Positions 10,881 through 63,218 of a stretch of 64,000 nt of DNA are shown here, one piece after another. The stretch is taken from the NCBI GenBank assembly GCA_946699065.1, contig CAMPDV010000152.1:248001-312000 (forward strand), written 5' to 3'. This DNA comes from Loxodes magnus (lineage: Eukaryota > Ciliophora > Karyorelictea > Loxodida > Loxodidae). Position 1 is the first letter of the stretch. Each line of letters starts with the position of its first letter. The translations under genes were made by a program, and so were the position numbers. Under the pieces are notes generated by a model. It saw only the letters and a list, made by a program, of their open reading frames with translations. It was not told the origin of the DNA and did no database searches.

Positions 10881-11735
10881 TTAATTCATTTAATATTGTT
10901 TAGCAGTAGATTTCACATCTGCTGCTTAAAATAAGTTTATAAGTTTTATCTCTCCTCCATTTGGTTTATTCCTTGTCGTCTTCTTCCAATAGGTCTTGTT
11001 AAAATCAGTCTCAGTGTATCTTGATTCAATTTTCTCTTATAGATTCCTCCTTCCCAATTGCAAAACTGCATTTCTCTTTCCTTTTTTCCTTGATTCAGTA
11101 TTTTTTCTTGAATTGATAAAATTTCTTGCACTACTTGTATAAGTGACCTTGTTAGCAACACAAGTAGCATTTCTTTAGGTTCCTTTTCAATTTGTTCCAC
11201 TTGTTGTTGACTTGAAATTTTAAATTCCAATTGTGTATTTTAGCTCTGAATTTATTGAATTAAGATTTTGTCTAACTATTTTATTCTTGCTGGTACTTTC
11301 ATAAAGCATCAATCTCCCTTTCCTAATTGGCCATTCTAAGATCAAGTGTATCTTAAATTCCATGAGAGATCTGCTCTGTCAACTTCGTGTTCTCCTTACG
11401 AAGCTTTTTAACCTCGTCCTGGAGGTTTAATACCACTTTTATGAGCTATTCCATGCTCATCTGGCCAGAAGGGTTGAACTCCGATACCTCCTGGTGTAAA
11501 GCAGACTTCATCTGCTCCCTTGGTTTCTCATTTGAGGTTGTAGTTTCCATATGGATTGTCTTTAGGTCTTGCTTTCATTACTCTTGTTAATTTCCAGGTT
11601 ATTAAGTACGAAAAAGTTAGGGTTATGAAAAAGAAGACTGCTAAAAAATGGTTTCCTGCTTCCTCTCTTCTTTTTTACCCTAAAGAAGAGGTGGTATAGA
11701 AGCCCTTTTTGAAACCCTCTAGCATTTCTCTTTTT
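10881..11735 (-). mobile_element. ORF1-only non-LTR element 3
   Basis: An 855-bp element between perfect 19-bp direct repeats (tataatatgctattattta at 10862-10880 and 11736-11754). On the minus strand it starts with an A-run and ATG (MLEGFKKGFYTTSS), followed by the segment SGQMSMEQLIKVVLNLQDEV, a coiled coil and a perfect CX2CX4HX4C knuckle (CYLCCQQGHLYKQC). The conserved C-terminal motif (EGGIYKRK) lies in another frame. In this copy one extra base near the N-terminus also breaks the frame. It lacks endonuclease and RT and inserted into LINE 2-related sequence. Confidence 0.8.
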
Positions 11736-14791: not shown

Positions 14792-17700
14792 TCAACGAAA
14801 CTTCTATAACTAATTTACTCTTTCTTTTGCTTCTTCGTAAAATAATTGGAAAATATTTCCTCCTAACAATTTTTAAATTTCTTCCGTTTTAATTTCTTAA
14901 GTGCACGATCATTTTAAACACCTGACTTATTTTTCTTTTCCAAGCATAATAAAAAGACCGTCTGTTTTGCTTTTTAAATGATTATAAAGACATCTTTTAC
15001 AGTATTAATGTCCACATTATAAAGTTATTAAGAATTCATTTATAAACTTCTAATTGCATTCTCTACATTTATAGATCTCTAAGTTTTTTTTTCCAAGATT
15101 CAATTATTAGCTTTACCTAGACTAATTCTATTCCTGGTTCTTTAATTCTTATAAATATTTTTCATATCTTTCCATACATTATTATCGATAAGTCATATAT
15201 GATTATCCATCAAAAGCTTATTTTATGTCTAAGTGATTAATTCATGATCCACATTTTTTTATAAGACATAAAGATTTAAATCCATATTCAAATTCATGAC
15301 AAATCATCTTTCCATTCGTCTAATTATACAACCATGAGAAAAAGCAATCTTTACATAATATATGTTTACAATCACTTAGTTCAACCTTTTAATTAAAAGA
15401 GATTACTTTGTTACACTAATCAGCCATACACTAGAAACTATTTTATTTCATATTCTAGTTTTCTATTTATTTATCTACATTTAGTTATTTTATAATTTAG
15501 GCTATTCCTTCTTCCTAGTCAATAACTTCAGATTCTTCATCACTTTTACTATCTTCTTATCTAGTTTATTTTTATATTTAATTATAGTTTAATTGTTATT
15601 ATTCCATATTATTACTTTAATTTTCTAAATTCAAGGAATTTTATATTTAAATTGACACCTCAAATGGCCAATCATCTAATCTAAATTTTTCACCTTTAAA
15701 CTTTTCTTTTCCTATATATTTCTCTTCTATATATCCATCTGCTTTTGATATCTCTATTGGATATATTAAGTCGTAGTGACCTGGCTTATATAGCATAAAT
15801 AGGAGCGATTTTTTCCCACTGGTATTCATCTAATCTAATCCTAAAAGTTTTTCTTAGCTTCCATCTAGCATTATCGTTTCAATTTTCACTCCTAGAGCTA
15901 TTTATAAAGGACCAACTGCTAAATCTTCAGCTTCTTTTCCCATCATCATAATATTAAATATCTACTCTCCAAAATTAGTAGTAAAGTTCTCTTATCTATG
16001 ACATTCTAGATAGTTTGCTGTAAAGCTTCTCATTTCCCAGACTAAAGCCTCATCATATTAGTCCTAGTTGTCAGAAACTCAGTTTTCTAGTAATCGGCTA
16101 ACATTATTCTAGTAGTAATTTTTCTCTAGATTCATTAATAGTTCTATAAACTTTTATCTTGGGCTATTTAAGGTGAAGGATTTTCTAACAGTGAAATAGT
16201 TAGTTGCTTATTTAACTTGTTAGATAAACTAAGTTAATACTGATAAAGGAGTAGTTTATCTTACTAAATACTCTAGAAAAGCGAAGCCTACAGCTCTGAA
16301 ATAGCAATTTCCATCTCCTCTGATATTTCTAAAAGCGTTGAATTTAGTTTATAATAACTAAAACAGATTTTATAGGTTTTGATTATGGGAATATTCTTTA
16401 GATAGAGTTTATAAATTCTTCCTAGGTTATAATTATTTTTTACTGTTAGGGTCTTAAGCAAGCAATATTACACAAGAATTAAATACCTAATCTTTATTTA
16501 ACGGATTACCATAAATATCTACTATTTTAGAGACATTTGCTTACATTTTTTAATTTTATTAGTTTATTTGAAGTTATTTTATTTACGCATTATCCAAATT
16601 AACTAACTTTATATTTCTTTCTTCATGAGAATTATTCTCTATAGCGTTTTGCTAAAATATTTATTGGTTATTTATAATTCTTTTACCTTTATCTAGCTCT
16701 AATAACTTTTCTTAATAGCCTCTTATTTATTCTTGTTATTATTAAATTATTTCGTTTAGTTGGTAATTTTAATTCCCTAATTGTTTAACTTAGTTTTCAA
16801 ATATCTCTTTCTAATTTATTTCTCCCAGTAGCTATTGACTTACCTATTAAATAATATTTTTCAAATTTGTTATTTCTACATTCTTCTCCATTATTACATT
16901 TTGAAGCTTCATTTTGTTCTATAGGGAAAATTATTGCTCCTATTATAACTTTGTGCAACAATTCTCTAGATTCTATATTTGAGTAAGCAGCTGGAAATTA
17001 TTACCATTAAGCTATAAAATTCTATTAATGATTGAATTATCTAAAGCATTTATGATTTGCTCTGTGTTTGCTCTCTTTTCTATATCTATCTAGAAGCACA
17101 TGTCTAGTATAATATTCAAATCAGTATCTAAGTTTTAATTCCTTTGAGGTAAATAATTTTGAGTTATTCTTTCTATTAGTTTAAACTAAGAATTGCAATC
17201 TCAATAAGGTATTTAACCATTTAAAGCTTAATAGATTACTCCCCCTAATGATCAGATATCACTCTTTTCTGTTATTTATTTATCTTTGAAAATTTCTGGA
17301 GATAAGAAATTTATAGATCCTATTTACTAAGTCTAAGTATATTATACTTGATTCGTTTAATTGCTGTATCTCATTATACGAGATATTCCAAAGTCTGATA
17401 TTTTAGCTGTTCCATTCTCACTTATTAGTATATTTTAAGGCTTCAAATCTCTATGTAAAACCTAACAGGCATGAAGGAAATGAAGTCCCTCTGTTACTTA
17501 TTTCGAGTATTGTAAAACCTTTATCAAGTTTTCTAGTGAAAGAGGTCTAGGCATAGCATTAATAATCTTATTGAAATCTTCAGGACAATATTCTAGAATA
17601 AGAGCTACTTAATCTATTTCTAGGATAAATCCAAGCAGACTCACTATATTTTTGTGTCTTTTGCTTTAGCTCATTAAGTCTATTTCTTCAATTATGTTAC

Positions 17701-17962
17701 GAACAAATTCTTATGATTTCTAACCTTTATATGCATATATTCTTTTAATAGCTACTTAAATAGACTAATTATTTGTCCAGTCAGTTAGTTAACTTAGATA
17801 CACTTCTCCAAATGCTCCTCTACCTAAAAACTATTTATCTTAAATGTTGATTTCCTATAAAGAATACCTCTTAACACCTCTCTAAGTTATATTCTAAATT
17901 TTAAGGGAAATCTCTTAGGTTTATATTAGATTTCAGACTTCTTAGGTTTAAATGAAGTTCAT
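14792..17962 (-). CDS. K1: protein kinase - otubain deubiquitinase - double RING fusion protein
   Basis: A 1057-codon frame from ATG to TGA (TAA/TAG = Gln, internal TGA = Trp). Residues 45-330 are a Ser/Thr kinase with glycine loop GRGAFGEV (47-54), AIK Lys73, HRDLKPQN (170-177), DFG (190-192), SPE and a SDIWSLGG motif. A Q-rich coiled-coil stretch follows. Residues about 540-740 match otubains (peptidase C65): GDGNCYFRAVGF with Cys553, and KPGHYDLIYP with His729 and Asp731; the Cys-His spacing is close to that of human OTUB1. Two C3HC4-type fingers follow, from about Cys845 (CKHILCKDC core) and Cys966 (CGHQYCKRC core, ending C-x4-C), resembling the RING1 of RBR ligases. No IBR domain was seen. 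All visible catalytic residues are present, so this is the best candidate for an active member. Its last 203 bp lie in the 15-kb duplicated block. I know no family with this order of domains; the domain calls are from motifs only. Confidence 0.85.
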
Positions 17963-21776: not shown

Positions 21777-24700
21777 TCATTTTTTTGTTTCTTATTTATT
21801 TGTCTTTTCATAATTCTCCTAGCTATTTTCTTCCAGTATTTTTATTATATCCTATTAAATTAGCTCTTAGCACTTTTATTAAGGACATTTTACATCTTTC
21901 TCATGAGCAGCTTTTACAAAACTTTTTTGAGTATTATCTTTCATATACTTGAGTAAACATTCTCTGCAGTATTGATGTTTACATTTTAGAGTTATTATCT
22001 AAATTTTTGCTCCAGACTATCTACAATCTCGCATTTAGCATTTATTTTTTTCTACAGTTTAATTAAACTAATTATGCTTTGCATTCTATGAGTTTTCTTT
22101 CTATAAATATCTTTCTAATCTTCTTATCATTTGATGCTAATAATATGTATACTGTTCCTCATCCATTGCTTACTTTATATCCAGTTGATTCATTTGCACA
22201 TGACAATTTTAAAATAGGCATTCTGTATAAAATTCTTCTTCGTTTTAATGGCATATGAGTTTACCTTTTGTCTATCTTTGCAGATAAGACATAAAGCAAT
22301 CTTTGCAAAACGTATGATCGCAAGTATTCATTTAAACAATTTCATCTTAAGTAATTTGTTTCTGACATTTCTTGTGCATGCACATATAGAATTTTTAAAT
22401 TTCTAGTTATTGATAAGCTTATTAATTGTGAGGTAACTAGTTTTCGTCTAAATAAGGAGCATTACAACGTACTTTATCAATTTCTATTTTGAATGGTCAT
22501 TAATCTATTTTAAAGTCCTCTTTCATAAATTTTTCTTTTCCTATATTCTTTTCTATTAAATATCCATCTGATTTGGATATCTCATTTGGATATATCAAAT
22601 CAAATTTTCCTGCTCTAAGTAGTAAAAATAATATTGGAAGTTTTCCACTTACATTCATCTAATTAAGTTCAATTGGAATTTCCCTATTTTCTTCTAATAT
22701 TATTATTTCTATTTTCACTCTTAAAATTATCTATAAAGGACCCATTGCTAAGTTTTCAGCTTCTTTTCCCATTACTAATATACTTTCTATCTATTCTTGA
22801 AGATCTTCAGTAAAATTTTAAAAGTGAATCTTGTGAAATTCTAGATAGTTGGCTGTATATGTTCTCATTTCCCAGACTAAAGCTTCATCAAATCTGTTGA
22901 TGTTTCCAGAGATTCATTTTTCTAAAAGCTAATTAATATTGTTTTCTTATTTCTTTCTCTCCAGAGTCTTTAAGAGCTCTATAAATTTTGATCTTAGCTC
23001 AGAGTTAAAGCCATTTTAGGAATAAGACTTCCTTAAAGTGAAATATCCTTTTGCTTACTAAACCTTCTCTATAAACTGAATTATCTCTTACTTAGAAGTT
23101 GTTTATCGAATTAAATGTTCTAGAAAGGCAAATCCAACAGCTCTATAATAACAATTTCCATCGCTTTTAATAGTTCTGAAAGAATCAAAACTTAGAGCTA
23201 AAAATTCGAAATACTATAATAAATCTTTGTTTTAGTTTAAATTTCTAGATAGAATCTCCAAATTTCTTCTAGCTGATATTTATTTTAAGCCTGATTACCC
23301 TTAATTTTCGACTCTCATTTCGAATATATTTTTAAAATCACTCTTAGCATCCAATCCATTTAGATCTTCTTAATAATATTAAGATTAACTTAGTTAATCA
23401 GTATATTAACTAAAGGAGTCATTAAGAACTCAGATCTAGCCACTTTTTTAAAAAGGATTATTATTCTATAATTGTTGAGCATTAGCAGTAAAATTTCAAT
23501 TTTCTCTATTAACTGCACTATTTTATCTGAGTTGTTCTTACAGTTCCTATACTTGCTACTTGAGATCGTTTATTTCATTAGCTTGTATTTAGAGCTATTC
23601 TTCACAGTTTTATCTTAAGTTGGTTTCTCTTGTTAGCTGTTGAATATTTTAATCAATTATGTTTTGCTAGAATAGTAATTCTCTTTCTTTTTCAAGTAAT
23701 TAAACCTCCAACCTATTTTCAATCTATTAACGCTCATTTTTCTCCTATAAGTACAAATTTTAATAATGTTCTACCTAAAATTGCATTTATTATACCATTA
23801 TCTAATTTCCACCTTACTAGCTAACTCTACTCATTATAGCTTTATCTAATGCGTTTATTATTTATTCTGTAGTCGCTCTCTCAGTTATTTTCTTCTTATA
23901 GCACATGTCAATTATTTCATTTAGATCAATAGGTAAATTTACAAATTACTAAGGTAAGGCTCCTCTAGATATCTCCTCTTATACTTATACTAGAGTTTAT
24001 ATTTAGAAATATGGTATTTAACCATTCAAGGCTCAATAAATTACTCCTCCTAACGATCATATATCACTCTTCTCTGTTAGCAGTTAGCTTGTTAGCCCTT
24101 CTGGAGATAAGAAGCCCATATTTCCTATTTACTGAGTTTGCAACCATTGCATCTAGTTAGAGTAATCGCTAAATTTCATCTAGCGGGATATCCCAAAATC
24201 TGTTAGCTTAGCTGTTCCATTCTCACTTATAAGAATGTTTTGAGGCTTCATTTCTCTATGCAGAATCAAGCAAGCATGAAGAAAATGAAGTCCTTCTGCT
24301 ATCTATTTCAGGTACTACAGAACAACTATAATGTTTTCTTCTGTAAGAGGTCTTATTAAACCACTTACAGTCTTGTGAAAATCTCCTGGACAGTATTCTA
24401 GAATATGAGCTATTTATTCCTTTTCAAGGATAATCCCTAGAAGACTTACTATATTCTTATGATTTCTGACATTACTCAGCAATTCAATTTCATTTATCAA
24501 GTTCTTTATAAATTCATCTGGCTTCTACCCTTTATACGTAAAAAGTCTTTTAATTGCTATTAAAGAAGACTGGCCTGTTTATTTAACAGTTAAATTGCTC
24601 AGGAAGACATCTCCAAATCCTCCTCTTCCTAAAAACTGAATATCTTCGACGTTAATATCCTTCAAAGAGTAGTTTTTGATACCTTTATTGACTATAGAAT

Positions 24701-25750
24701 TGATCTTTGCAATATTTTCTTAGAGTTAGAGTAAAAATAAGACTTCTTAGTTTTAAGTATATTTCATTTATTTTTAAAATTTAAGGTTTATTTATCTCTA
24801 TCCAATTAAATTTTTTAAATAGTTTTAGATTTTAATCTAAAGGTAGATTTAAAATATTTTGATTATACTATTTCATTATAATTTTGATAGCATTAAAATT
24901 TTGAGAAGCTAAAAGATTTTATTAAGTTTGACTTAAAAGGGTAGAATAAAGTTTAATTAGGAAGAGCTCTATTTAGTTGTAAATATTAGAGTAAAGGAGA
25001 AAGTTAATGCTTTTGTATGAAAGGAGAGTTATAAGAAGTGAAATTCTTATATATTCATACTGTCATACTGATATATTAAAAAAACTGAATTCTGATGATT
25101 TATCATTATACGTTACTTACAAAAAGGATTTCTAAACTAAGGATTAAAAATAGAAATAAGTGCAAAGATATTTCGATAATTTATTTTAAAATAGCTCTTA
25201 ATCATTTTATTAAGCTATAATCAAGGTAGATTGCCTATAGTATATCACTCACAGTTATTCATTCTATATGATGATAAAATCATTTTGCTCAATTTTTTCT
25301 AAATGACCAGATGATCCATTTGATTGTGAAATTTTCTTTTATTTTTAATTTTAATGTTGACAATGAAATGACAATATTGGTGTCTTTTAAGCTATTTTAT
25401 TTTATATTGTTCTACTCTCATAAATAAACCTTTTATCTGTTACACTTAATAAACCTAAAAAATATAATAACTATCCAGTTTCATAATATAGTCAACACTA
25501 TTCTTTATATAGAATCACATTAAATATTCAGTGCTTAGCAAACATCTAAGAATGTGAAATAAAATCTAAATATGAAACTTTAATTTGCAACAATATCTAG
25601 AATAGTTAAGGCTGTAGTTAAACTTTTATAATAATAGCAAATCATTAATAATGCTTAATGGTAAGCTTTGATCATAAATAGGCGAAAGAAGAAGATAGTT
25701 TGATTATAAAACTTTAAAAGTTGTGATGAGGAAGAGCCAGTAAGATAGTA
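20979..25750. repeat. 4.8-kb inverted duplication, original arm (K2 locus)
   Basis: The reverse complement of this segment is found at 59249-64000. It carries the whole K2 gene, its upstream spacer and the last 270 bp of the membrane-protein gene that starts at 27763. The window ends inside the other arm, so the repeat may extend beyond base 64000. Confidence 0.95.
21777..24767 (-). CDS. K2: kinase-otubain-RING paralogue with altered catalytic residues
   Basis: A 997-codon frame from ATG to TGA, paralogous to K1 over its length and in the same orientation. The kinase has [11 protein letters not shown] and TDFG, but the catalytic loop reads HREMKPQN (170-177), so the catalytic Asp is Glu172. 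The otubain part keeps [12 protein letters not shown] (Cys539), but the site matching K1 His729 reads [10 protein letters not shown], with Lys721 for His. Two RING-like fingers (CDHTFCKDC and CKHQYCREC cores) end the protein. An intact frame with both enzyme sites changed suggests a pseudo-enzyme kept for binding or regulation; this is inference. The ATG is supported by alignment with K3 (MKYTQNQE versus MKYSQSQE). The start codon and two frame positions differ in the inverted copy K2'. Confidence 0.8.
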
Positions 25751-34533: not shown

Positions 34534-35522
34534 CTTTATTATTAGAAACAGGTAAAAAAATGGTTGAAGGTTTCAAGTCAGGCTTCTATACCACCTCTTC
34601 CTAAGCCAAAAAGGAAGGGAGGCAGCAAGAAACCAATTTTTAAAAATCTTAACAATCTTCTCTATCACAACCTTAGCCAACACTGAACTAACAACTTGGA
34701 ATCTAACAAAACGAACGAAAGCCAACCTTGAAGAATATACACACGGAAACTCCAACCTCAAGCGAGAAGTCGAGGAAACAGATGAAGTTTGTTCTCCACC
34801 AGGAGGTATCAGAGTTCAACCCTTCTGACCAGATGAGCATGGAGTAGCTCATCAAAGTGGTACTGAACCTCCAGGAAGAGGTCAAGAGAATGAAGAAGGA
34901 CAACGATATGCTGATGGTAAAGCTAAACCTAGCAGAAGGAATTAAGTCAAGACTTATGACCTAGGAAAGAGATCTTAACGCCTTTTGGAATATCTCGCAA
35001 AATCAGACTAACGAATCCTAAAATTAGCTTTAGAAACAGACTGAACTGGATAACAGACTCGGAAAAGTAGAAGAGAAATTGTAAACTTTTAAGAAAGAGT
35101 AAAGCGAAATTGGAGCTATACAAATGGAAATTGAAGCCTAGAAAGACTAAACAAATCAAGGAAAATAATTCAAAATAAAAAAGAAATGTTTCTGCTGTGG
35201 AAGCGTATGACATTTTTATCGGAAGTGTTAGAAATTCTAATAGAAATAAAGAAACTATTGGATAAAAGAACAACAAAAGAACAAAAAAGAAGAAGCAAGA
35301 ATGAAAAGAATGTATTGCAACCCGGATGGTTCAATATACAAGATTAAGATGGAACCATAACAAGTAAAAGGAAGAAAACCTGGAGAAACCAGAGTTCCCA
35401 ATCTCGCTAAAATTGGACGTCCCAAACATTTATATTTAACAGCAGAGAGCATGAACTGCTGTCCTCCTGACGGGGTTGGAAATCTCTAAAACGGAAAACT
35501 TAAAATTAATATTATTATTATT
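34534..35522 (+). mobile_element. ORF1-only non-LTR element 5, nested in LINE 1
   Basis: A 989-bp element between direct repeats ataaaccagatttaaat (34517-34533 and 35523-35539, 17 bp; the first three bases could be shared with the tail). It opens with an A-run and ATG and ends in ATT repeats. The host LINE frame is continuous across the duplicated site. This is the most recent event seen in this stretch. Confidence 0.85.
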
Positions 35523-41090: not shown

Positions 41091-43886
41091 ATGAAATATT
41101 CCTAGAGCTAAGAAATCTTCTAGTTATTTTAAACCTAGGAAAATACCTAAAAAATCAAAATTATAATTGATAAAGGCATTAAAAGGTATTAATAGCAGGA
41201 AATCGATGTTTAAGATATTTAGTTTTTAGGAAAAGGCGGATTTGGAGATGTTTTCTTGAGCAATTTAACTGACAAGTAAACTTCTTAGTCTTCTTAAGTA
41301 GCAATTAAAAGGTTTTATACATATAAAGGAAATAAGCCAAATGAATTTATAAGGAACTTAATAAATGAAATAGATTTGCTTAGTAATGTCAGAAATCATA
41401 AGAATATAGTAAATCTTCTAGGGATTATCATTGAAATGGAATAAATAGCTCTTATTCTAGAATACTGTCCTGGGGATTTCTGCAAGACTATAAGTGCTAT
41501 ACCACGCCCTCTTACAGAAGAAAATATGATAATTGTTCTGAAGCACTTGAAATAGATAACAGAAGGACTTCATTTTCTTCATGCTTGTTTAATTCTGCAT
41601 AGAGATATGAAACCTCAAAATATTCTTATAGGTTAGAATGGAACAACTAAGCTAACAGATTTTGGAATATCCCGCCAGATGAGATACAGCATTTATTCTA
41701 ACTAACTGCAGTGAATGTAAACTGAGAAATTAGGAACAGTAAATTTCTTATCTCCTGAAGTATTAGCAAACATACCATTAACAGAGAAGAGTGATGTATG
41801 ATCGTTAGGAGGAGTAATTTACTGAGCTTTGACTGGTTAAGAGCCATATTATTAAATCTAAGCTCCAATTTAAGTATAAGAGGAGATATCAAAAGGAAAC
41901 TTACCTTAGAGATTTTAAAATTTACCTGGTGATTTAAATTAAATAATTGAAATGTGCTATCAAAGGAAACTATCTGAAAGAGCAACTACAGAATAAATAA
42001 TAAACGCACTAGACAAGGCTATAGAAAGTAGAATTAAATAATAAGGTGGAAAGCTAAAGTTATAATAAATGAAAGGTTCGATAGAATACTATTAAAATTT
42101 GTACTTATATGAGAGGAATGAACGCTAATAGAATGAAGATAGGTTAAAAGATTAATTGCTTGAAAAAGAAAGAGAATTACTAGTTTAGAATAACATAAAT
42201 GAGTAAAATAACAAACAGATAATAAGTGAAACTAGATTAAGATAAAGCTGTGAAGAATAGCTCTAAGCACAAGCTAGTGAAATAAATACTTTATAGCAAA
42301 AAATACAGAAACTACAAGAGCAGTTTAACCAGAATATTTCAGTTAATAGAGTAAGTTTGGAGTAATAAGTACAACCTAGTCAGCAAATATTGGGGTAGGA
42401 AGAAAATCAAGCTGTCTGAGCTTAGAACTATTAAATCTCAAAGACTCCAAATTAACCTTAGAACTAAAATTAAGATTACTCTGATTAAACACAATCCATT
42501 TAATCTCAGATATCTAATAGATTATAAGCTTAAGATAATGAGGAAATGAAGCAGAAATGAAAGGATTAGAGTCAATAGAATTAACTCCTTAGTGCAATAA
42601 GCAATCTAAATAATTAGCAATAATAAATATAAGAAAGAGATTAGAAAAATAACTAAGAGGAAATCAATCAAATCAATAATATTCAATAAAATATGCTTAA
42701 TAAATAAAACTAAAAGCAGGAAGAGGAAAATAACCTTTAAGAGTAAAATTATAAATAGATGTAATTTAAAAATAATTCAAAAGAAATTTATAATGTCCAA
42801 GTATATCCTAATAACGGAATCGGGTAGTAAGTTAACGCTTATTAATGAAATACTAACTAGAATTAAGATTAACTTAAACTAATAAATAATAACGAATAGT
42901 ATTAACATGAATAACCAAATAAATAAACTTAGATATTCTCATAAGAATAGAGTTATAATTATAAATTTCTGAATTGCAAGTAAAATCAGCAAAAGCACTT
43001 CAAAAATGACTAATTGGGTCCATAGAGATAATAAATAGGGCAAAGCAGCGAGATAAACTCTTGACTCTACTAAAAAATATCTGTTTATAGTGGAGAAAAC
43101 CAGTAAAATATAAATGAAGTTTAATCTCCTAAAATTATTAGATAAAACGAAAAAGACTAAGAGAATTAAGTAAAGGAAAGGTAAAGTATAATGTTCAAGT
43201 AGAATGCTTAAGCACTCTATTAAAATAAGGAGATAGAAATAGCAAGTTAATAAAATTCAAATTAAATACAATTTATCAAGGATTAAGTATAATAGCAAAT
43301 ATAAGGGATAAAAGATTCCATATGAAAAAGCAATTCTAGACATGAGATCATCAAGTAAATGATTAATCTATAATAGATTGACAAAGATTTCACATACTAC
43401 ATATAGTTTGCTCTAATGATAAAATTTTAATCTGCTGTTGTTTTGCAGAGATAAATATATCAAACAAATTTGCTAATAAGAGGATTAAAAAATAGCCTTA
43501 TAATAGAAAAAGAAACAAAAGAAGAGCTTTAAAGATGAATTTAAGGTGCTTTAAAGTACTTTATAGAAAATATTCAATTTGGAAGAAAATAACTTAAGGA
43601 AGTTAACTTTTTTAACATTCCCAAGTGAAAGAGCTATAACATATGAGAACTTGATTAAATTTTTCTAAAAGAATCAATTAATATACTTTTGCAAATAATG
43701 CATAAAATTTAAAGTTATGAAAAGTTAGGTAGCAAATAGAATGAATTGGGAAATCTTCATATTAGCATGAAAATAATTTTATAAGAAATATTTAATGAGT
43801 CCATTAAAGAGGAAACGAAGAAAGACCTGTAAAGAATAGCCAATATATTGATAGATAAAATAAGACGGAAAAGGTACATGAACTGA
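41091..43886 (+). CDS. K3: Ser/Thr protein kinase with Q/N-rich tail, no otubain domain seen
   Basis: Frame of 932 codons including TGA; a TGA at 43956 is an alternative end. Residues 45-310 form a kinase with GKGGFGDV, AIKR, HRDMKPQN (170-177), TDFGISR, SPE and SDVWSLGG, close to K2. A coiled coil ([10 protein letters not shown]) and a long Q/N-rich, low-complexity region of about 400 residues follow, then a basic C-terminal segment (about residues 750-930) that I do not recognise. No GDGNC or GHYD motif was found, so the otubain and RING parts of K1/K2 are absent or replaced. TGA is needed as Trp in the kinase core (DVWSLGG, YWAL). The kinase call is firm; the tail boundary is less so. Confidence 0.75.
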
Positions 43887-55067: not shown

Positions 55068-55923
55068 TTAATTCATTTAATATTGTTTAGTAGTAGATTT
55101 CACATCTGCTGCTTAAAATAAGTTTATAAGTTTAATCTCTCCTCCATTTGGTTTATTCCTTGTCGTCTTCTTCCAATAGGTCTTGTTAAAATCAGTCTCA
55201 GTGTATCTTGATTCAATTTTCATTTTATAGATTCCTCCTTCCCAATTGCAAAACTGCATTTCTCTTTCCTTTTTTCCTTGATTCAGTATTTTTTCTTGAA
55301 TTGATAAAATTTCTTGCACTACTTGTATAAGTGACCTTGTTAGCAACAAAAGTAGCATTTCTTTAGGTTCCTTTTCAATTTGTTCCACTTGTTGTTGACT
55401 TGAAATTTTAAATTCCAATTGTGTATTTTGGCTCTGAATTTATTGTATCTAAGATTTTGTCTAACTATTTTATTCTTGCTGGTACTTTCATAAAGCATCA
55501 ATCTCCCTTTCCTAATTGGCCATTCTAAGATCAAGTGTATCTTAAATTCCATGAGAGATCTGCTCTGTCAACTTCGTGTTCTCCTTACGAAGCTTTTTAA
55601 CCTCTTCCTGGAGGTTTAGTACCACTTTTATGAGCTATTCCATGCTCATCTGGCCAGAAGGATTGAACTCCGATACCTCCTGGTATAAAGCAGACTTCAT
55701 CTGCTTCCTTGGTTTCTCATTTGAGGTTGGAGTTTCCATATGGATTGTCTTTAGGTCTTGCTTTCATTATTCTTGCTAATTTCCAGGTTATTAAGTAAGA
55801 AAAAGTTAGGGTTATGAAAAAGAAGACTGCTAAGGAATGATTTCCTGCTTCCTCTCTTCTTTATTGGCTAAAGAAGAGGTGGCATAGAAGCCCTTTTTGA
55901 AGCCTTCTAGCATTTTTCTTTTT
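55068..55923 (-). mobile_element. ORF1-only element 3, copy A' (longer open frame)
   Basis: Counterpart of 10881-11735 with the same 19-bp repeats (55049-55067 and 55924-55942). Here the N-terminal frame is unbroken from ATG through the coiled coil to the knuckle, unlike copy A. A change of frame before the C-terminal motif is shared by both copies. Confidence 0.8.
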
Positions 55924-59045: not shown

Positions 59046-59247
59046 TCAACGAAACTTCTATAACTAATTTACTCTTTCTTTTGCTTCTTCGTAAAATAAT
59101 TGGAAAATATTTCCTCCTAACAATTTTTAAATTTCTTCCGTTTTAATTTCTTAAGTGCACGATCATTTTAAACACCTGACTTATTTTTCTTTTCCAAGCA
59201 TAATAAAAAGACCGTCTGTTTTGCTTTTTAAATGATTATAAAGACAT
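59046..59247 (-). pseudogene. K1 C-terminal fragment created by the duplication breakpoint
   Basis: These 202 bp equal the last codons and TGA of K1 (14792-14994). They encode the end of the second RING finger (VRCLKWSC) and the tail. The homology to K1 stops abruptly at 59247, where an inverted copy of the K2 upstream region begins, so this is a truncated duplicate without a promoter or start. Confidence 0.85.
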
Positions 59248-60229: not shown

Positions 60230-63218
60230 ATTAAATTTACTTAAAACTAAGAAGTCTTATTTTTACTCTAACTCTAAGAAAATATTGCAAAGATCAATTC
60301 TATAGTCAATAAAGGTATCAAAAAGCACTCTTTGTAGGATATTAGCGTCGAAGATATTTAATTTTTGGGAAGAGGAGGATTTGGAGATGTCTTCCTGAGC
60401 AATTTAACTGTTAAATAAACAGGCCAGTCTTCTTTAATAGCAATTAAAAGAATTTTTACGTATAAAGGGAAGAAGCCAGATTAATTAATAAAGAACTTGA
60501 TAAATGAAATTGAATTGCTGAGTAATGTCAGAAATCATAAGAATATAGTAAGTCTTCTAGGGATTATCCTTGAAAAGGAATAAATAGCTCTTATTCTAGA
60601 ATACTGTCCAAAAGAATTTCACAAGACTGTAAGTGCTTTAACAAGACCTCTTACAGAAGAAAATATTATAGTTGTTCTGTAGTACCTGAAATAGATAGCA
60701 GAAGGACTTCATTATCTTCATGCTTGCTTGATTCTATATAGAGATATGAAGCCTCAAAACATTCTTATAAGTGAGAATGGAACAGCTAAGATAATAGACT
60801 TTGGAATATCCCGCTAGATGAAATTTAGCGATTACTCTAACTAGATGCAATGGTTGCAAACTCAGTAAATAGGAACTATAAACTTCTTATCTCCAGAAGT
60901 GCTAATAAGCTAACTGCTAACAGAGAAGAGTGATGTATGATCGTTAGGAGGAGTAATTTATTGAGCCTTGAATGGTTAAATACCATATTTCTAAATCTAA
61001 ACTCCAGTATAAGTATAAGAGGAGATATCAAGAGGAGCCTTACCTCAGTAATTTATAAATTTACCTATTGATCTAAATGAAATAATTGACATGTGCTATA
61101 AGAAGAAAATAACTGAGAGAGCGTCTACAGAATAAATAATAAACGCATTAGATAAAGCTATAATGAGTAGAGTTAGCTATTAAGGTGGAAATTAGCTAAT
61201 GGTATAATAAATGCAAATTTAGGTAGAACATTATTAAATTTGTACTTATAGGAGAAAAATGAGCGTTAATAGATTGAAAATAGGTTGGAGGTTTAATTAC
61301 TTGAAAAAGAAAGAGAATTACTATTCTAGCAAACCATAATTGATTAAAATATTCAACAGCTAACAAGAGAAACCAACTTAAGATAAAACTGTGAAGAATA
61401 GCTCTAAAAACAAGCTAATGAATTAAACGATCTCAAGTAGCAAGTATAGGAACTGTAAGAACAACTCAGATAAAATAGTGCAGTTAATAGAGAAAATTGA
61501 AATTTTACTGCTAATGCTCAACAATTATAGAATAATAATCCTTTTTAAAAAAGTGGCTAGATCTGAATTCTTAATGACTCCTTTAGTTAATATACTGATT
61601 AACTAAGTTAATCTTAATATTATTAAGAAGATCTAAATGGATTGGATGCTAAGAGTGATTTTAAAAATATATTAGAAATGAGAGTCGAAAATTAAGGGTA
61701 ATCAGGCTTAAAATAAATATCAGCTAGAAGAAATTTGGAGATTCTATCTAGAAATTTAAACTAAAACAAAGATTTATTATAGTATTTCGAATTTTTAGCT
61801 CTAAGTTTTGATTCTTTCAGAACTATTAAAAGCGATGGAAATTGTTATTATAGAGCTGTTGGATTTGCCTTTCTAGAACATTTAATTCGATAAACAACTT
61901 CTAAGTAAGAGATAATTCAGTTTATAGAGAAGGTTTAGTAAGCAAAAGGATATTTCACTTTAAGGAAGTCTTATTCCTAAAATTGCTTTAACTCTGAGCT
62001 AAGATCAAAATTTATAGAGCTCTTAAAGACTCTGGAGAGAAAGAAATAAGAAAACAATATTAATTAGCTTTTAGAAAAATGAATCTCTGGAAACATCAAC
62101 AGATTTGATGAAGCTTTAGTCTGGGAAATGAGAACATATACAGCCAACTATCTAGAATTTCACAAGATTCACTTTTAAAATTTTACTGAAGATCTTCAAG
62201 AATAGATAGAAAGTATATTAGTAATGGGAAAAGAAGCTGAAAACTTAGCAATGGGTCCTTTATAGATAATTTTAAGAGTGAAAATAGAAATAATAATATT
62301 AGAAGAAAATAGGGAAATTCCAATTGAACTTAATTAGATGAATGTAAGCGGAAAGCTTCCAATATTATTTTTACTACTTAGAGCAGGAAAATTTGATTTG
62401 ATATATCCAAATGAGATATCCAAATCAGATGGATATTTAATAGAAAAGAATATAGGAAAAGAAAAATTTATGAAAGAGGACTTTAAAATAGATTAATGAC
62501 CATTCAAAATAGAAATTGATAAAGTACGTTGTAATGCTCCTTATTTAGACGAAAACTAGTTACCTCACAATTAATAAGCTTATCAATAACTAGAAATTTA
62601 AAAATTCTATATGTGCATGCACAAGAAATGTCAGAAACAAATTACTTAAGATGAAATTGTTTAAATGAATACTTGCGATCATACGTTTTGCAAAGATTGC
62701 TTTATGTCTTATCTGCAAAGATAGACAAAAGGTAAACTCATATGCCATTAAAACGAAGAAGAATTTTATACAGAATGCCTATTTTAAAATTGTCATGTGC
62801 AAATGAATCAACTGGATATAAAGTAAGCAATGGATGAGGAACAGTATACATATTATTAGCATCAAATGATAAGAAGATTAGAAAGATATTTATAGAAAGA
62901 AAACTCATAGAATGCAAAGCATAATTAGTTTAATTAAACTGTAGAAAAAAATAAATGCTAAATGCGAGATTGTAGATAGTCTGGAGCAAAAATTTAGATA
63001 ATAACTCTAAAATGTAAACATCAATACTGCAGAGAATGTTTACTCAAGTATATGAAAGATAATACTCAAAAAAGTTTTGTAAAAGCTGCTCATGAGAAAG
63101 ATGTAAAATGTCCTTAATAAAAGTGCTAAGAGCTAATTTAATAGGATAAATAAAAATACTGGAAGAAAATAGCTAGGAGAATTATGAAAAGACAAATAAA
63201 TAAGAAACAAAAAAATGA
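60230..63218 (+). pseudogene. K2': decayed inverted copy of the kinase-otubain-RING gene K2
   Basis: Aligned to K2 by reverse complement. The K2 start codon corresponds to ATT at 60230. One base is missing after the kinase domain (near 61240) and one near the C-terminus (near 63140), each moving the frame. The kinase retains GRGGFGDV and has YRDMKPQN and IDFG where K2 has HREMKPQN and TDFG, so it regained or kept the catalytic Asp but lost the preceding His. The otubain segment has SDGNCYY and the same [10 protein letters not shown] as K2. Loss of start plus two frame shifts makes a full product unlikely, unless an in-frame ATG further in is used for a partial protein. Confidence 0.8.

Follow-up and report, generated by a model that had tools for sequence, protein, structure and literature searches.

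In a 64,000-nucleotide stretch of the Loxodes magnus genome (contig CAMPDV010000152.1, positions 248,001–312,000; hereafter the window), a gene on the complementary strand, K1, appears to encode on a single polypeptide a protein kinase, a helical linker, an otubain-type deubiquitinase and two RING fingers. To judge from the sequence, these are known domains in an arrangement for which no report was found, and which is present in two diverged copies. Our preferred reading, given a probability of about 0.42, is that K1 is a single-gene fusion whose fingers, of the type of RING1 in RING-between-RING (RBR) ligases, would dock a ubiquitin-conjugating enzyme (E2), and whose kinase would gate an otubain that erases or blocks ubiquitin signals more than the protein writes them, with a paralogue (K2) as a possible pseudoenzyme partner. 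Kinases, deubiquitinases and parts of ubiquitin ligases (E3) normally meet as separate proteins. If the reading is correct, three activities on one selected chain in two diverged copies would mean a common substrate, and K1 would allow the coupling of phosphorylation to ubiquitin editing to be studied directly.

Domain composition of K1

Translation of the complement of 14792–17962 with NCBI table 27, in which TAA and TAG encode glutamine and TGA is either tryptophan or stop, yields 1056 residues from the initial methionine to the final TGA (14792–14794), in agreement with the single frame described in the initial annotation. Glutamine is encoded by TAA (n = 77), TAG (n = 36), CAA (n = 19) and CAG (n = 2). 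Six in-frame TGA codons ahead of the final one are read as tryptophan, including codon 237, which we take to be the tryptophan of SDIWSLG, a conserved kinase motif. The features of K1, all on the complementary strand, are:

14792–17962: K1 gene, encoding kinase, helical linker, otubain, RING-a and RING-b in that order (table 27 translation, Pfam)
17048–17842: protein kinase domain, residues 41–305 (Pfam, motifs)
16430–17047: glutamine-rich linker, residues 306–511, without in-frame TGA (sequence, codon usage, structure prediction)
15758–16429: Peptidase_C65 (otubain) domain, residues 512–735, with D550, C553, H729 and D731 (Pfam, alignment, fold)
15251–15430: RING-a, residues 845–904, C3HC4, last ligand pair C-x4-C (ligands; nearest in the Protein Data Bank (PDB), parkin RING1)
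15242–15244: in-frame TGA, codon 907, between RING-a and RING-b, read as tryptophan (K1 translation)
14903–15067: RING-b, residues 966–1020, C3HC4, last ligand pair C-x4-C (ligands; nearest RBR in the PDB, RNF216 RING1 with its following helix)

The kinase with all key residues, the otubain with Cys553/His729/Asp731 and the two RBR-RING1-like fingers proposed initially are all supported. The kinase matches Pkinase at 180.8 bits (cut-off 31.7), and GRGAFGEV (47), VAIKR (70), HRDLKPQN (170), DFG (190) and SPE (221) are intact, supplying the G-loop, VAIK lysine, HRD aspartate and DFG aspartate of eukaryotic-type protein kinases; it is of Ser/Thr type and apparently active. Peptidase_C65 scores 106 bits (cut-off 24.3), with DGNC at 550 (Cys553) and GHYD at 728 (His729, Asp731), and D550, C553 and H729 stand at the Asp, Cys and His positions of otubains. 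The structural model of this domain has the otubain fold, with OTUB1/OTUB2 as the best PDB match (E 1.4e-16); residues 27–262 of the model are spanned by at least one fifth of the rows in this comparison, and the fingers are barely tested by fold. The domain is apparently an active cysteine deubiquitinase and a probable eraser of ubiquitin.

The fingers match zf-C3HC4 in two stretches (28.7 bits, cut-off 21), the remaining Pfam RING models falling under their cut-offs. All eight zinc ligands are present in RING-a (C845, C850, C865, H867, C870, C873, C899, C904) and in RING-b (C966, C969, C983, H985, C988, C991, C1015, C1020), 16 of 16 in total. In the linker, a long helix is predicted at 324–438 with low confidence (predicted local distance difference test, pLDDT, about 50). 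Structure prediction, which had been suggested as a check, supports the otubain fold. The full-length model (six sequences) has a mean pLDDT of 48.5 with the kinase part unmodelled; it weighs against the preferred reading and was not used to define domains. An NCBIfam scan returned only kinase-type models, all far under their own cut-offs, Rfam gave no match at the gathering threshold, and none of the 10 other open reading frames scanned (of 109 in the window) had a Pfam match at E 0.01.

One gene or in-phase neighbours

Under table 27 there is no dedicated stop and any frame can be read through, so an uninterrupted frame is weak evidence and the openness of the K1 frame does not in itself argue for a fusion. 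Kinase and otubain–RING part might instead be two genes lying in phase, which would look fused without any fused protein being made. This we regard as unlikely, and one gene is clearly more likely for K1 on the sequence evidence. Two related genes in the window enter the comparison:

21777–24767, complementary strand: K2, whose kinase, C65 and two RINGs follow one another as in K1, in one frame (Pfam, alignment)
41091–42650, forward strand: K3, a related kinase with helical linker (75% amino acid identity to K2 in the kinase)

The gene frame of K1 contains six TGA codons and the other sense frames 20 and 28. Codons 255–627 (P 0.003) and 629–906 (P 0.014, both at the TGA rate of the window) are free of TGA, and hence none separates the kinase, the otubain and RING-a. 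K2 (996 amino acids, 47% identical to K1) has the same domain order and frame despite a synonymous divergence (dS) of 1.26, and the ratio of nonsynonymous to synonymous divergence (dN/dS) between the two is 0.22 in the kinase, 0.29 in C65 and 0.30 and 0.35 in the fingers, the linkers being looser (0.61, 0.68). Each K1 domain is under purifying selection. Similarity between K2 and K3 extends into the linker (dN/dS 0.43), and the start ATG lies at the same place in K1, K2 and K3. With codon usage trained on the domains, the gene frame is favoured in four of five K1 linker segments, including 361–505 and three of the four segments between kinase and otubain; three score higher than the 95% level (0.09) obtained from random windows, and five 100-codon flanks score below zero in every frame. 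The very short introns reported for L. magnus, together with the same genetic code, in the excerpted text of PMC11441545 (mode 17 bp, 93% ≤25 bp) are too short to delete a domain. A scan of K1 for GTA..YAG motifs of 15–30 nt found 19 candidate introns (five of them multiples of three), all far too short to remove one.

Several observations point the other way. The antisense frames of K1 hold only 11, 16 and 12 TGA codons, and one antisense frame of K2 holds five against six in its gene frame. In K1, segment 311–360 has the better codon-usage score in another frame (0.19 versus 0.04), and linker residues 351–500 dip to a G+C content of 0.20–0.23, as low as the flanks (mostly 0.20–0.25), a point tempered by the fingers being G+C-poor too (0.22–0.27). 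Between its kinase and otubain, the K2 linker contains in-frame TGA codons at 424 and 446, and codon usage gives segment 411–450 of K2 no coding signal in frame (−0.10); a single gene is less certain for K2 than for K1. TGA 907 would also, on sequence alone, permit K1 to end after RING-a. Termination at codon 907 with loss of RING-b is less likely, as RING-b aligns with that of K2 (dN/dS 0.35), where there is no TGA at this position. The fusion on one polypeptide put forward in the initial annotation is supported by the sequence, and one transcript would span all domains.

Relatives, fingers and proposed working

Searched against 5.8 billion proteins, the second half of K1 had 4437 candidates, of which three matched at E 0.001; a profile search gave 51 matches among the 7992 candidates scored. 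For none of these do the precomputed Pfam domains include a kinase. In a Pfam scan of four of them, P0002 and P0003 carry otubain, RING and IBR matches above cut-off, P0016 carries otubain with RING and IBR matches both below cut-offs, and P0004 carries C65 alone. Of the 16 zinc-ligand positions of K1, alignment shows 15 in P0002, 15 in P0003 and 10 in P0016. Like K1, P0002 and P0003, and more weakly P0016, have RING fingers after an otubain domain; P0002 and P0003 differ in the IBR that follows a RING and in lacking a kinase, whereas K1 and K2 have a kinase and no RING2 was found in them.

In P0002, P0003 and P0016 a deubiquitinase is combined with what is probably an RBR ligase in one protein (P0016 under the Pfam cut-offs). 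No description of an otubain–RBR protein was found in the searched literature, including work on otubains in ciliates and the Stentor kinome, and these proteins would represent a writer–eraser combination likewise without a description there.

The first 480 residues of K1 gave 1734 protein matches; among the 120 listed, identity is 24–38% and PF10275 is listed for none. Karyorelict proteins are probably poorly represented where genes were called with other codes, so the lack of other kinase–otubain fusions means little. The initial remark that no described protein with this fusion was known agrees with the searched literature, which covers few subscription journals and whose listings, not gone through paper by paper, name no kinase–otubain–RING fusion.

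In a C65 tree of 33 rows, K1 and K2 group together (100/99) beside a fork (92/86) containing P0002, P0003 and 18 others. The tree does not place K1 and K2 inside the otubain–RBR proteins, and with P0016 placed elsewhere these three do not form one group, an outcome that weighs against the preferred reading; simple descent of K1 and K2 from otubain–RBR proteins is not supported by this tree. It is plausible that K1 and K2 derive from such a protein that gained a kinase and lost its RBR end.

By sequence, the fingers bear a weak similarity to RBR RING1, and in the profile comparison RING-b found its best match in RNF4, a canonical RING (E 0.0062); both observations weaken the proposed RING1-type assignment. 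When the RBR region of P0002 was compared by BLAST with the six frames of the window, the longest alignments, in K2b (a near-copy of K2 described below; E 1.6e-6), K2 (2.2e-6) and K1 (0.055), ran from RING-a into RING-b and paired RING-b with the IBR part of P0002. RING-b alone fits RING1 of P0003 (3.5e-5) and of P0002 (2.2e-4) better than the P0002 IBR (0.006). With E values up to 1 admitted, Pfam matched no IBR family in K1, and no RING2 with a catalytic cysteine was matched by the RBR regions of P0002, P0003 and P0016 in the six frames at the same limit; the matches end by residue 848 of P0002 (RING2 from C847, by eye) and residue 775 of P0003 (C806).

K1 might instead be a full kinase–eraser–writer, its two RINGs jointly forming a canonical RING ligase and ubiquitin being added and removed under control by phosphorylation. 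The complete set of zinc ligands and the RNF4 match would suit such a protein, and a kinase and a RING/PHD-type E3 occur on one chain in MAP3K1 (MEKK1; excerpt of PMC13072407). We consider it unlikely. The last ligand pair is C-x4-C in all four fingers of K1 and K2, and none of the four has an arginine at the linchpin position, which follows the last zinc ligand: K1 has Gly905 and Thr1021 there, and K2 a His and a Gln. For HHARI, RBR RING1 by itself does not enhance discharge to lysine, as stated in the excerpt of PMC5548887. With no IBR by Pfam, no RING2 match and no linchpin arginine found, and RING1 alone poor at discharge, K1 is best described as a probable eraser and possible E2 dock in which no writer is shown. 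The writing, reading and erasing first envisaged is thus partly supported, with writing weaker than initially stated, the catalytic half of an RBR ligase not having been found, and the fingers are tentatively assigned to the RBR-RING1 type.

OTUB1 and OTUB2 share with K1 the fold and the Asp-x-x-Cys and His sites; both are small single-domain enzymes, and the N-terminal helix of OTUB1 binds ubiquitin and E2. According to the excerpt of PMC6254341, OTUB1 binds E2s such that uncharged E2 stimulates the deubiquitinase and charged E2 is trapped. A20 (TNFAIP3), like K1, has an OTU deubiquitinase and zinc fingers on one chain. It belongs to another OTU subfamily, its fingers are non-RING and, unlike in K1, the kinase (IKKbeta) is a separate protein. 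Phosphorylation by IKKbeta enhances the ubiquitin-modifying function of A20 (excerpt of PMC9110840). The RBR ligases parkin, RNF216 and HHARI share with K1 the RING1-like fingers and following helix and differ from it in RING2 (none found in K1) and IBR (none by Pfam). Plant KEG carries a kinase domain, and we know of no deubiquitinase domain in either MAP3K1 or KEG. KEG is a RING-type E3 (excerpt of PMC5385374). By analogy, K1 combines the ideas of OTUB1, A20 and MAP3K1.

In the preferred reading, the fingers would dock an E2, free or ubiquitin-charged, beside the otubain, and E2 binding, as in OTUB1, may stimulate ubiquitin removal or trap the charged E2. The attached kinase might work in cis or share a target with the otubain, gating otubain activity or target choice, and K1 would be a ubiquitin editor comparable to A20, with an integral kinase and without the RBR catalytic half, erasing or blocking more than writing. 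K2, lacking the kinase catalytic aspartate and the otubain histidine, may partner K1 as a pseudoenzyme, with the helical linker perhaps mediating the pairing. A more far-reaching version, which we think unlikely, makes K1 a self-contained phospho-ubiquitin editor of one target, with an autophosphorylation switch, paired with a double pseudoenzyme, K2, and derived from an otubain–RBR family that already joined writer and eraser.

Paralogues and the rearranged region

In K2, HRE replaces HRD in the kinase, and C65 (85.5 bits) has lysine in place of the otubain histidine. Two further copies lie toward the end of the window:

60317–63156, forward strand: K2b, a near-copy of K2 in which ATA stands in the start position and two one-base gaps appear against K2 (alignment)
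59046–59247, complementary strand: a second copy of K1's final 67 codons, identical at 202 of 202 bases and truncated by the rearrangement junction at 59247

The kinase and C65 of K2b lie in different frames, C65 being seen in frame +0. Over the 281 codons of the kinase, 39 bases differ between K2 and K2b, evenly spread over codon positions; over the 251 codons of C65 three differ, and the 217 codons of the fingers are the same in both. The catalytic loops of K2 and K2b read HRE and YRD, respectively; gene conversion or relaxed constraint are possible explanations of the kinase patch.

These losses would also suit a protein that is mainly a scaffold or decoy, one of a degenerating and duplicating kinase family in a rearranged region whose enzymes are drifting: catalytic residues are gone from both enzymes of K2, K2b lacks the ATG and shows the two one-base gaps, and the second K1 copy is cut by the rearrangement. 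K1, however, retains every motif checked, with dN/dS of 0.22–0.35 in its domains, and we judge this account improbable.

Following K3, no otubain was matched in the window, and K3 runs into a Q/N-rich stretch; the unit of kinase and linker may have been reused with different C-termini.

The window contains a near-identical repeat (1–14993/44193–59247, 97–99%) followed by an inverted repeat (20980–25750/59247–64000, 98%). At the junction (14993/59247) the second copy of K1 breaks off within RING-b, near codon 990. An origin of RING-b as a chance product of this junction was rejected, since RING-b of K2 aligns across 14993 with ligands on both sides. The rearrangement may reflect an inversion, haplotype variation, a segmental duplication or a join made in assembly. 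A dispersed repeat of ~320 bases, 77% identical between copies, is present at 11411–11727, 34556–34885 and 55597–55917.
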